64,000 nucleotides of DNA. Origin: Halococcus salifodinae DSM 8989. Its GTDB lineage: Archaea > Halobacteriota > Halobacteria > Halobacteriales > Halococcaceae. A program made the position numbers and the translations under genes. The stretch lies in contig NZ_AOME01000013.1 in assembly GCF_000336935.1 (NCBI RefSeq), positions 60,290 through 124,289 on the forward strand, in the 5' to 3' direction. A model generated the notes under the pieces. It was not told the origin of the DNA and made no database searches. It worked only from the letters and a program-made list of their open reading frames with translations. Shown here piece by piece: positions 33,532 to 38,352 of this stretch; the stretch's first letter is position 1, and every line of letters starts with the position of its first letter.

Positions 33532-33577
33532 GGGGAATCGTGATAAAATCGTCGCTGTTCGGCGATCCGGCGAAACG

Positions 33578-33662
33578 TGCGAGGGATGCGATTTGAACGC
33601 ACGAACTCCTAAGAGATCGGGTCTTAAGCCCGACGCCTTTGGCCAGACTCGGCCACCCTCGC
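33578..33662 (-). tRNA. tRNA-Leu (UAA)
   Basis: The minus strand reads acceptor GCGAGGG paired with CCCTCGC, discriminator A, a D-arm GGCCGAGTCTGGCC-type sequence, and the anticodon arm TCGGG-CTTAAGA-CCCGA with anticodon TAA (UAA, reading UUA). A long class II variable arm follows, then the T-arm GTGCG-TTCAAAT-CGCAT. The long variable arm confirms leucine. CCA is not encoded after the discriminator, and no intron is seen. Confidence 0.95.
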
Positions 33663-34958: not shown

Positions 34959-36110
34959 TCACGCGACGTTTCGCTCGACGAGTTCGTCGCCGTCGTCCTC
35001 GAACCGGCGACTCGACAGCGGCTCGACGTCGACCAGCGACGCCTCGCCGTCGGTGCAGAGTTCGGCCACCAGCCGTCCGGTGGCTGGCGCGTGCTGGAAC
35101 CCGTGGCCCGAGAACCCCGCCGCGGTGACCAGGCCAGGTACCGTTTCTTCGAGGATGGGGTGGTGATCCGGCGTCACGGCGTACAGCCCCGCCCACCCAC
35201 GGCGGATGCGCGAATCGCCGTCGAAGTAGCTCGTGTACGCCGCCGCGCGTTCGACCGCCGTGGCCGCCCAGTCGAGATCCATCGAGTCCGAGTAGGCGCT
35301 CGGATCGACGTCGGACCCGGTCTCGGCGAAGTGGCCACCGACGAGCGCGGCCCCGTCCCGTTCGGGGCGGAAGTACGACCCCTCCTCCAGATCGATCGTC
35401 AGCGGGACATCCGCCGACACCGGGCGGCTGGGATCGACGACCGCGATCTGGCGGCGGCGCGGGTGAATCGGGAGGTCGATCCCCGCCAGGTCGGCGACGG
35501 TCGCCGCCCACGCGCCCGCAGCGTTGACCACGAACTCCGCGTCGATCCGTTCGGCGTCGGTTTCGACGCCCGTGACCCGGCCGCCGTCGGTGACGAGATC
35601 GACGACGGGCGTCCCCGTTCGGACGTCGACGCCGGCCTCCCGAGCGCTCGTCGCGTACCCCTGGACGGCGAGGTTCGGGTCGGCGAACCCGTCGGCAGCG
35701 TTGTAGGTCGCTCCGACGAACTCGTCGGGATCAAGGCCCGGACAGCGCTCGACGGCCTCGCTGGGCGAGAGGAACTCGCTGTCCACGCCGAGGTCGTGCT
35801 GCATCGCCACGTTCTCGCGGAACCGATCGGCCGTCTCGGGGGTGCGGGCGAGGAAGCAGTAGCCTGGCCGCCGGTGGGCGATGTCGACGCCGAACTTCGC
35901 CTCGAACGCCTCCCAAACCCGCAGGCTCTCGATCGAGAGGCGGACGTTGACCGGCGTCGAGAACTGGGTCCTGATCCCGCCCGCCGAGCGGGCGGTGCTC
36001 CCCGTTCCGAGCGAGCCGCTCTCACAGAGGGTCACGTCCGCACCGGCCGCGGCGAGCGCGTTCGCGGACGAGAGCCCCACGATGCCGCCCCCGACGACGA
36101 CCACATTCAT
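34959..36110 (-). CDS. FAD-dependent D-amino-acid/sarcosine oxidase-type oxidoreductase
   Basis: Protein of 383 aa of the DAO (glycine/D-amino acid/sarcosine oxidase) family. The FAD dinucleotide site is VVVGGGIVGLSSANALAAAG at about 4-23, followed by GSTARSAGGIRTQFSTPVN. The second FAD contact FVVNAAGAWA is near 190, and the C-terminal GWAGLYAVTPDHHPILEE and AAGFSGHGFQHAPATG complete the signature. It oxidises a small secondary amine or amino acid; which one is not visible. It is the last GC-rich gene before the AT-rich island. Confidence 0.9.
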   Translation of the reverse strand: MNVVVVGGGIVGLSSANALAAAGADVTLCESGSLGTGSTARSAGGIRTQFSTPVNVRLSIESLRVWEAFEAKFGVDIAHRRPGYCFLARTPETADRFRENVAMQHDLGVDSEFLSPSEAVERCPGLDPDEFVGATYNAADGFADPNLAVQGYATSAREAGVDVRTGTPVVDLVTDGGRVTGVETDAERIDAEFVVNAAGAWAATVADLAGIDLPIHPRRRQIAVVDPSRPVSADVPLTIDLEEGSYFRPERDGAALVGGHFAETGSDVDPSAYSDSMDLDWAATAVERAAAYTSYFDGDSRIRRGWAGLYAVTPDHHPILEETVPGLVTAAGFSGHGFQHAPATGRLVAELCTDGEASLVDVEPLSSRRFEDDGDELVERNVA

Positions 36111-36427
36111 GCTGGCGAATCTGAGCCGCGTGGTGGAATAAGTCTACTGGCGACGCCGGAAGCGGTGCCCATCGGAGCCCTCTCCGAGGAATCGTTCATT
36201 CGGCTCCGTCAAGACACTCAATGATTGGTGGAAGTGGCTTAATAATTGTGTAGTTTTTATTGGAAAGAAAGTAGCTCAAACATATCCGTTGTGTATATTC
36301 CACTTGAGTGGCTGTTTCGAGCAATCCTTTCTTTCTCTTTTTGACCTTCGTGTCGTAGTCTTAAGCGGAAGTCGACTGGAGAGCAATAGTATAAACGGTT
36401 TTGGATTTTGCCCGCTTCTGAGAAGAT
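36111..36427. other. AT-rich left flank of the island, no gene
   Basis: The sequence shifts from GC-rich to AT-rich near 36220. No reading frame with family likeness is present on either strand. A short hairpin (CGGAG-CCCT-CTCCG near 36174) lies at the GC-rich end. The AT-rich part may hold the leader and promoter of the 36428 gene. I found no clear attachment-site repeat between this flank and 37181-37380 by eye. Confidence 0.5.
36388..36397 (+). promoter_or_regulatory. TATA-like box for the island gene
   Basis: AGTATAAACG lies about 31-40 nt upstream of the ATG at 36428, placing the likely transcription start within about 10 nt of the start codon. It fits a haloarchaeal promoter, though the whole region is AT-rich so the match is less informative. 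Confidence 0.35.
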
Positions 36428-37180
36428 ATGCTCTCGCTGGATGAGGCAGAAAATCTCGGTGCAGTAGCACAAGAAGCGGCGCTAATTACTCGTGACACCA
36501 CCCTGGGCGTATCGGATGAGGAAGATATTACTGATGAATTCATCCACAATCTAGTTAGCAAACTGAATAGCGCCTCGATGAAGCATCTCGTCGCGGCTGA
36601 CGAACTTTCTAAGATTAATCCACGGGCTGAATCTGTCGTGGGAGCCGATTTTATATTTATGGTTGTGTATGCGACGAGAGCCGCAATCACAGACTGGGGA
36701 TTTCTATCGCAGGCCAAGTACTATGCTAATGCGACAAATCGATCAGGTGCGACAACCAAACTCGTCGATCAATGCAACACAATGCAGGGACACACTCCAG
36801 CCAGCTTTGCGAATATCTATTACAATGACACCTATCGATTCTTCCCTGCATCCCAACTCGTAGCAGACGGTCTTGCTGACACTAAACTTTCACTACCAGA
36901 AATGAGCAAGAAGTTTTCAAATCGAGCGACACGAAACTTCTTTAAAGAAGTGTTCTACGGTCTATGGGGTGATCGATGGGTCGCTCAACACTATAATCAA
37001 TTACTTGAAGCCAATTCCAGTGACGATGTCCCTAACCGAACAGCTGCGACTGACGGTGGTGAAAATGTCTCTGCCAAGCGAGTGGTCATCACGATTGTTA
37101 AAGAAAGAGATGTGAACTATCGTGTTACCGACGAGCTTGGCTACGAGGATGCAGAGATGTTCTCTGATAGAGATATTTGA
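36428..37180 (+). CDS. AT-rich orphan protein with possible PD-(D/E)XK nuclease fold
   Basis: Protein of 250 aa that I do not recognise by name. Its codon use and composition (Asn, Lys, Tyr, Phe-rich, few acidic residues) differ sharply from all neighbours, indicating transfer. A GADFIFMVV strand followed about 14 residues later by GFLSQAKYY recalls the D...(E/Q)xK core of restriction-endonuclease-like folds. The downstream LVDQCNTMQGHTPASFANIY and FFPASQLV recall hypothetical proteins with that QAK core that I associate with defence loci. Residues: Asp near 76, QAK near 97-99. Nuclease or defence function is inference. No methylase, toxin or antitoxin partner is adjacent. Confidence 0.55.
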   Translation: MLSLDEAENLGAVAQEAALITRDTTLGVSDEEDITDEFIHNLVSKLNSASMKHLVAADELSKINPRAESVVGADFIFMVVYATRAAITDWGFLSQAKYYANATNRSGATTKLVDQCNTMQGHTPASFANIYYNDTYRFFPASQLVADGLADTKLSLPEMSKKFSNRATRNFFKEVFYGLWGDRWVAQHYNQLLEANSSDDVPNRTAATDGGENVSAKRVVITIVKERDVNYRVTDELGYEDAEMFSDRDI

Positions 37181-37222
37181 TTCTCTGCTATCGTCACACG
37201 TTCGTTAGAAAACGCTATTTGT

Positions 37223-37243
37223 TGTATACGACCCTTATATACA
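37223..37243. promoter_or_regulatory. Small inverted repeat after the island gene
   Basis: TGTATA and TATACA face each other across a 9-nt spacer, 43 bp after the island gene stop. It may be an intrinsic 3' end structure or an operator-like site. The remaining 37181-37380 sequence is AT-rich to about 37310 and then GC-rich, with no gene. A CCATAACCC stretch at 37351-37359 is a plausible promoter element for the next gene. Confidence 0.3.
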
Positions 37244-37380
37244 GCATGACTTAAAATCCAATCATCATTCAGGAACCTCAACAAACCCGTTCGTTTCGCT
37301 TTTCGAATATTTCTACGACCGTTCCCGCCCTCACACCGAAGCGGGGAAACCCATAACCCGGTCGCTGGCGAGGCGAACGC

Positions 37381-38352
37381 ATGGTCCTGGTGCTCACCGA
37401 CGCCGAGATCGACGAGGTGCTCGCCCTCGAATCGCTCGCCAGTGAGGTCGAGCACGCGCTCGTCAAGCAGGCCGCGGGGGCGGTCGAACGCCCGGAACGA
37501 CCCCACTACCCGGTCGGCGAAGGACTCGACTCCGACGACCCCCTCGGAACGGGCCTCGTGATGCCCGCGTACGTTCACGGCGAGGACTACTTCGCGACGA
37601 AGCTCGCCAGCATCCACGAGGGCAACGCCGACCGCGGGCTGCCGACGCTCCACGCCCAGATCGTGCTCGCCGACGCACGCACCGGCCAGGCCGTCGCCTT
37701 CCTCGACGGGACGCGGATCACCAACGCACGAACCGGCTGCATCGGCGGCCTCGCCGCCCGCGAGCTCGCGACCGACCCGGTTCGAATCGGCGTCGTCGGG
37801 GCGGGCGCGCAGGCGCGGTGGCAGACCAGGGCCATCGCCGCGCTGTGTGACGTCGAGAGCGTCGCGATCTACTCGCCGAGCGACTCGAAACACGAGTGCG
37901 TCGACGCGCTCGACGAGGAGGGAATTCCGGCGGAGGCCGTCGAATCGGCCGCCGACGCCGTTCGCGACAAAGACGTGGTCGTGACGGCGACCACGAGCAC
38001 CGAACCGGTGTTCCCGGCCGACGCGCTCGGACCCGGAACGCTCGTGGTGGCGATCGGGGCGTACGAGTCGGGGATGCAGGAGCTCGAACCAGGAGTGTTC
38101 GATCGTGCGGCGCGTGTGTTCGCGGACGTGCCCGAGGAGGCGGCGACGACCGGCGATCTCGCCGCGACGTCGCTGACCGCCGCCGATCTCGTCCCGATGG
38201 CGGCGCTGTTCGAGGACGACGCAGGCCGGGAGTCCGCCGACGAGATCGTCGTGGTCGAAAGCGTCGGATCGGCGGTGTTCGACGTCGCCGCGGCCACGGC
38301 GATCTACGGGGCGGCACGGGAAGCGGGGCTCGGCACGGACCAGGCACTCTGA
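37381..38352 (+). CDS. Ornithine cyclodeaminase/alanine dehydrogenase family protein
   Basis: Protein of 323 aa of the OCD/mu-crystallin family. The NAD site is IGVVGAGAQARWQTRAIAAL at about 138-157. Substrate-side motifs are HGEDYFATKLASIHEGNADRGLPTLHAQIVLAD, with the Lys, and DGTRITNARTGCIGGLAARELA. The family includes ornithine cyclodeaminase, archaeal alanine dehydrogenase and other imine reductases. The archaeal context makes alanine dehydrogenase a fair guess, but specificity is not decidable. It starts immediately after the AT-rich island. Confidence 0.88.
   Translation: MVLVLTDAEIDEVLALESLASEVEHALVKQAAGAVERPERPHYPVGEGLDSDDPLGTGLVMPAYVHGEDYFATKLASIHEGNADRGLPTLHAQIVLADARTGQAVAFLDGTRITNARTGCIGGLAARELATDPVRIGVVGAGAQARWQTRAIAALCDVESVAIYSPSDSKHECVDALDEEGIPAEAVESAADAVRDKDVVVTATTSTEPVFPADALGPGTLVVAIGAYESGMQELEPGVFDRAARVFADVPEEAATTGDLAATSLTAADLVPMAALFEDDAGRESADEIVVVESVGSAVFDVAAATAIYGAAREAGLGTDQAL

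Follow-up and report, generated by a model that had tools for sequence, protein, structure and literature searches.

The 64 kb window (the whole 64,000-nucleotide stretch of Halococcus salifodinae DSM 8989 DNA, to which positions refer unless another contig is named) carries an AT-rich insert of ~1069 bp (~1.07 kb) that holds a single gene, whose protein is here called P0001; the insert is bordered by divergent genes for a dadA-like FAD oxidoreductase and an ornithine-cyclodeaminase-like (ocd-like) protein (Table 1). The G+C content of the insert is 0.443 compared to 0.662 for the remaining window, the minimum among windows of 1069 bp (mean 0.659, sd 0.033), and over the 64 kb scanned a G+C below 0.55 occurs only in windows that overlap it. 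The ends were placed by nucleotide comparison with two congeneric genomes, G044 and G073; against G044 they fall at ~36209 and ~37277, with flank homology stopping at 36208/37278, and against G073 at 36190 and 37333, with homology stopping at ~36189/37334. An earlier note, made from the letters of this DNA, had singled out ~36220-37310 for its base composition and described one 250 aa protein alone in that region; both observations are borne out, the latter by an intact frame with an ATG start. A boundary search gave just short imperfect repeats, none of them marking an end of the insert, so there are no grounds for claiming a transposon or integrase signature. A tRNA-Leu (TAA) gene (33577-33662, reverse strand) lies 2.6 kb away from the insert; it is not at the border and therefore is not the integration site. 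Within the window the flanks are metabolic, and no defence neighbour is seen beside P0001.

Table 1. Features of the insert, its single gene and its borders (positions in the window; residue numbers refer to P0001).
Feature	Position	Strand	Basis and remarks
dadA-like FAD oxidoreductase gene, left border of slot	34959..36110	-	93-94% identical orthologues in G044 and G073; name from sequence
AT-rich insert, one gene	36209..37277		between divergent dadA-like and ocd-like genes; ends from G044 alignment
TATA-like element (around TATAAAC), candidate promoter	36389..36395	+	by eye; usual haloarchaeal promoter layout
P0001, 250 aa, predicted stand-alone PD-(D/E)XK nuclease	36428..37180	+	ATG start; 17-row alignment; AlphaFold model
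Codon of E31, candidate metal ligand	36518..36520	+	near start of helix A (28-48 in model); nearly invariant column
Codons E68-S-V-V-G-A-D74	36629..36649	+	E68, G72 and D74 invariant; D74 directly before β2 (75-82)
Codons Q95-A-K97, (E/Q)xK half-site	36710..36718	+	strand β3 (87-98); Q and K invariant
Codons LVDQCNTM (112-119)	36761..36784	+	in helix B (106-122); M119 invariant
Codons FPASQLV (139-145)	36842..36862	+	end of strand β5 and start of next helix; A141 nearly invariant
ocd-like (ornithine-cyclodeaminase-like) gene, right border of slot	37381..38352	+	91-93% identical orthologues in G044 and G073; name from sequence

The gene for P0001 is present as a single copy in the genome (4.2 Mb, 109 contigs), and the TATA-like element stands ~35 nt 5' of its ATG. 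P0001 has a pI of 4.7 and a D+E content of 13.6%, while six neighbour proteins have a pI of 4.1-5.1 and a D+E content of 15.5-24.7%; the acidic bias that the note had found lacking is thus reduced relative to most neighbours, but the protein is still acidic. The motifs picked out by eye are all present, GAD at 72-74 and SQAK at 94-97 together with the LVDQCNTM and FPASQLV blocks, although the numbering first given for the Asp (~76) and for QAK (97-99) was ~2 too high.

Relatives of P0001 are found in both archaea and bacteria. A class-wide search with P0001 alone yielded three distant haloarchaeal relatives, and a plasmid search yielded one from Roseomonas; a scan of genome contigs with P0001 alone gave no match. 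Iterated searching added more haloarchaea and plasmids of Enterobacter, Rhizobium and Polymorphobacter, and an alignment-based search of genome contigs gave six loci (a bacterial MAG, Citrobacter, Variovorax, Janthinobacterium and Rhizobium among them); relatives also occur in 3 of 5426 E. coli genomes. The haloarchaeal members include one from the same taxonomic family as the source (a Halobacteriales MAG), and a further relative belongs to an archaeon of another, distant family of the same archaeal phylum. The relatives are 205-250 aa in size; most are complete genes that stand alone, their neighbours differ, and they are carried on plasmids and in a prophage among other places. Phage records gave no family match, and the viral contigs searched gave only two, both of them enterobacterial prophage-type contigs.

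The 17 aligned relatives share 16-25% identity with P0001, yet E68, G72, D74, Q95, K97 and M119 are invariant in all rows, giving the pattern E...GxD...QxK; E31 (at least 90% of rows), L112, S126, A141, G181 and D182 are nearly invariant. The residues noticed by eye are therefore those kept by selection, and the motifs are more than chance likenesses. Four distant haloarchaeal relatives from two genera, L012 (1393-2157, reverse), L013 (1288-2083, forward), L036 (1300-2154, forward) and L037 (1462-2310, reverse), keep the Asp and the C-terminal half while the QxK half is lost or changed (VAK or LAT); judged by these changes, they are apparently inactive.

Single-sequence searches with P0001 gave no match in Pfam, PADLOC, PHROGs or PDB, and at the level of the family no significant match was found in Pfam, NCBIfam, PADLOC, PHROG or PDB sequences when members were scanned. 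Two relatives scanned alone against PADLOC likewise had no match; a PADLOC scan of the set A1 gave two weak matches, each for an individual member (E 0.02-0.03), and one of the two was to CARF_PDDEXK. PGAP and plasmid records label the relatives hypothetical proteins. A search of the open-licence literature gave no paper that names the E. coli relative WP_000842629, nor, going by titles and abstracts, any obvious description of the family. A likeness to a DUF6615-type motif was dropped, as it had no Pfam support.

The structure of P0001 was modelled with AlphaFold from an eight-row alignment; the model is weak (pLDDT 59, pTM 0.62) and leaves the last 50 residues unmodelled. It features a helix at 28-48, strands at 53-59, 75-82 and 87-98, a helix at 106-122 and strands at 126-131 and 136-140. 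The model of the Citrobacter relative is confident (pLDDT 85, pTM 0.84) and has the same order of elements: helix 35-49, strand 57-63, strand 81-88 (after D80), strand 93-104 (with Q101 and K103), helix 113-129, and strands 133-138 and 143-147. Both models contain an α-β-β-β-α-β core, the full order in P0001 being α-β-β-β-α-β-β; this arrangement is the classic PD-(D/E)XK superfamily core. The motif, an acidic residue followed by QxK, is placed on strands 2 and 3 of this core, in P0001 through the weak model. Judged from the secondary structure, D74 and Q95/K97 are predicted to lie on facing strands of the β2-β3 hairpin, since a register with 82/87 at the turn would set residue 74 opposite 95. 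The earlier suggestion of a D...(E/Q)xK nuclease-like core, with the Asp and QAK brought together in a nuclease fold, thus agrees with the invariant residues and the predicted models.

The top Foldseek match, and the sole one at E ≤ 0.001, is human Rep15 (E 2.6e-5), a eukaryotic Rab effector that is not described as a nuclease; it resembles the P0001 family in overall fold, so that the common feature is a PD-(D/E)XK-like superfold and not a function. The nearest fold to Rep15 according to its authors is the Hjc resolvase 2EO0 (PMC9308819). Below significance, Foldseek returns MspJI, the SPARDA nuclease, RecU, Hjc, Dna2, HinP1I and SwaI; for the first four E is 0.006-0.05 and the probability mostly 0.6-0.94, with low TM-scores of 0.3-0.46. 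PD-(D/E)XK families (Mrr_cat, Hjc, RecU, MspJI, SPARDA DREN) supply most of the matches after Rep15 and, like the core predicted for P0001, have an Asp before β2, (E/Q)xK in β3 and an acidic residue in helix A; they differ in that none has a significant sequence or profile match to the P0001 family, and overall TM-scores are low. In HMM-HMM comparison Mrr_cat aligns with the D and K in register at P 0.067 and Hjc at P 0.4, neither of them significant (reversed and unrelated controls, P 0.21-0.65); membership of the PD-(D/E)XK superfamily therefore rests on the invariant residues and the predicted fold.

The genes surrounding the relatives were scanned with PADLOC at 17 loci, taking ORFs up to four genes away as a pooled set and selected ORFs individually. 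A defence gene is present at at least 8 of the 17 loci, a raw tally with no random-locus baseline and a lower bound, since the pooled scan gave the best 25 of 161 matching families. The E. coli prophage relative is near PD-T4-3 (2e-140) and a PD-T4-6-like kinase, and the Roseomonas relative is near Lit (5e-21); in Enterobacter the neighbour is the FRG candidate PDC-S15 (2e-31), in Citrobacter DzbA (4e-51), and in Variovorax PDC-S06 (2e-174), which ends 57 bp upstream of the relative. The Janthinobacterium copy, which runs into a contig end, is accompanied by an HNH protein of effector type (3e-24, a domain-level match). The G282 locus contains SspF, SspG and SspH (SspFGH; SspH 2e-68), the G039 locus a SPARDA-type Argonaute (1e-52) and its nuclease, and Aga_REase (1e-98) is also among the neighbours; a PIN_8 protein next to the Rhizobium tubonense relative was left out of the tally. 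The defence systems differ from one to the next of the Citrobacter, Variovorax, Janthinobacterium and enterobacterial prophage relatives, although all of these show 73-86% identity to the Citrobacter protein; a defence gene that is mobile would be expected to show this pattern. The link to defence first drawn from the motifs is thereby matched by the homologues' surroundings. For the plasmid and E. coli relatives, the annotated neighbours include no methylase. In G126 the relative has as its immediate neighbour, encoded on the same strand, a 306 aa protein with apparent membrane segments (L071:7950-8867), which is a possible partner of it in that lineage; an Orc1/Cdc6-like gene lies on the other side.

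The dadA/ocd pair is found in the same divergent arrangement in G044 and G073, where the gap holds other AT-rich cargo. In G044 the sole cargo is a 314 aa orphan ORF with an apparent N-terminal membrane segment (L066:526-1470); it has no match in Pfam, PADLOC, PDB or plasmids and no relatives were found, and by its position it is a defence candidate. In G073 a 90 aa ORF (L067:672-944) lies directly upstream of a 570 aa HD protein (L067:953-2665) that matches the PADLOC dGTPase defence model (3e-75); the small ORF has no Pfam or PADLOC match and is possibly a regulator or partner of the dGTPase-like gene. This dGTPase gene is, like the P0001 insert, AT-rich cargo between the same two genes, whereas its product is an HD phosphohydrolase unrelated to P0001 and has a small companion ORF. 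Four sister-genus genomes have the divergent pair with just an empty gap of ~170-190 bp between the two genes. Because flank homology stops at the insert ends in both comparisons, the site has received three unrelated inserts; exchange of cargo through recombination in the conserved flanks would be the simplest explanation. The P0001 family was found neither in G044 or G073 nor in the other searched genomes of the genus, and no description of the dadA/ocd slot was found in the open-licence literature.

On this evidence P0001 is likely a small stand-alone PD-(D/E)XK nuclease of a family unnamed in the libraries searched, serving as a single-gene defence against viruses or other invading DNA. 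Computation supports this through the invariant E/GAD/QxK residues and the predicted fold, the occurrence of the family in both archaea and bacteria, the defence genes near its members and the swapping of cargo in the slot. The chances are about even for the wider proposal of a new compact single-gene antiviral PD-(D/E)XK family that haloarchaea and bacteria share, that functions with neither a methylase nor a partner, and that in this genus is one of several swappable cassettes in a minimal dadA/ocd slot with no recognisable integrase. The nuclease and defence interpretation put forward in the earlier note is supported; its alternative, a remnant of a larger system, is less likely, as the relatives are mostly complete lone genes and their neighbours vary. 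The PD-(D/E)XK superfamily and a single-gene life style are already known; the family itself is absent from the libraries searched.

In the proposed mechanism D74, Q95 and K97, with E31 or E68, would bind Mg2+ and cut DNA. P0001 would restrict foreign DNA without a cognate methylase, since none is nearby, and would thus either recognise a mark or structure of foreign DNA or be switched on by infection. The first of these modes, which is that of type IV enzymes and would rely on a mark or structure specific to foreign DNA, is considered the most likely, with activation by infection as the alternative. The insert was probably gained as a complete cassette, one gene together with its promoter, that entered by recombination through the conserved flanks. 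As expected of a type IV enzyme, the gene stands alone in its insert, with no cognate methyltransferase; MspJI, Mrr and PD-T4-3 likewise consist of a single gene with a nuclease domain and no methylase. PD-T4-3, which adjoins a P0001 relative in the E. coli prophage, is reported to be a one-gene type IV restriction enzyme (PMC12923530). It belongs to the GIY-YIG group whereas P0001 is predicted to be PD-(D/E)XK, and unlike type IV enzymes the models of the P0001 family (205-250 aa proteins) have no separate visible domain for reading modified bases.

The main rival to a type IV-like mode is infection-triggered suicide, in which P0001 would be an abortive-infection toxin, quiet until infection and then degrading host and viral nucleic acid to stop the cell. 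A small lone nuclease without a methylase could act in this way, the neighbours of the relatives include the suicide-type Lit and the SPARDA-type Argonaute pair, and the Citrobacter model shows no separate sensor domain; but the family has no antitoxin or inhibitor gene as a consistent companion, and a lone constitutive nuclease toxin needs tight built-in control, of which none is visible. Such a toxin is a possible but clearly less probable identity for P0001 than a nuclease that recognises foreign DNA. It is unlikely that P0001 is instead a DNA-processing nuclease of the Holliday junction resolvase or recombination type, serving replication or repair of mobile elements rather than defence: Hjc and RecU are among its fold neighbours and relatives occur on plasmids and in a prophage, but the one-gene insert lacks replication or recombination partners, the neighbours vary by locus and are often defence genes, and the genome already has its own Hjc. 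That the gene is a functionless remnant or chance ORF is very improbable, for although it is a lone AT-rich gene in a GC-rich genome and is missing from the other searched genomes of the genus, its frame is intact and every family-invariant residue is kept at such low identity, and decay would be visible given that relatives with a changed site exist elsewhere.

If P0001 is indeed a defence nuclease, it represents an unnamed family, spread across archaea and bacteria, that is missed by current Pfam, NCBIfam and PADLOC models. The dadA/ocd site would then be a defence slot of very small size, with constant metabolic genes on either side and a changing load of one or two genes, exchanged with no recognisable integrase, so that small AT-rich inserts of this kind could serve as a guide to more haloarchaeal defence genes. 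The E. coli member of the family makes the question of phage defence testable at once. In E. coli M8 and two further strains the end of the prophage (L025:8850-12662) carries PD-T4-3, the PD-T4-6-like kinase and the relative in a row, which is a probable three-part defence cargo region.
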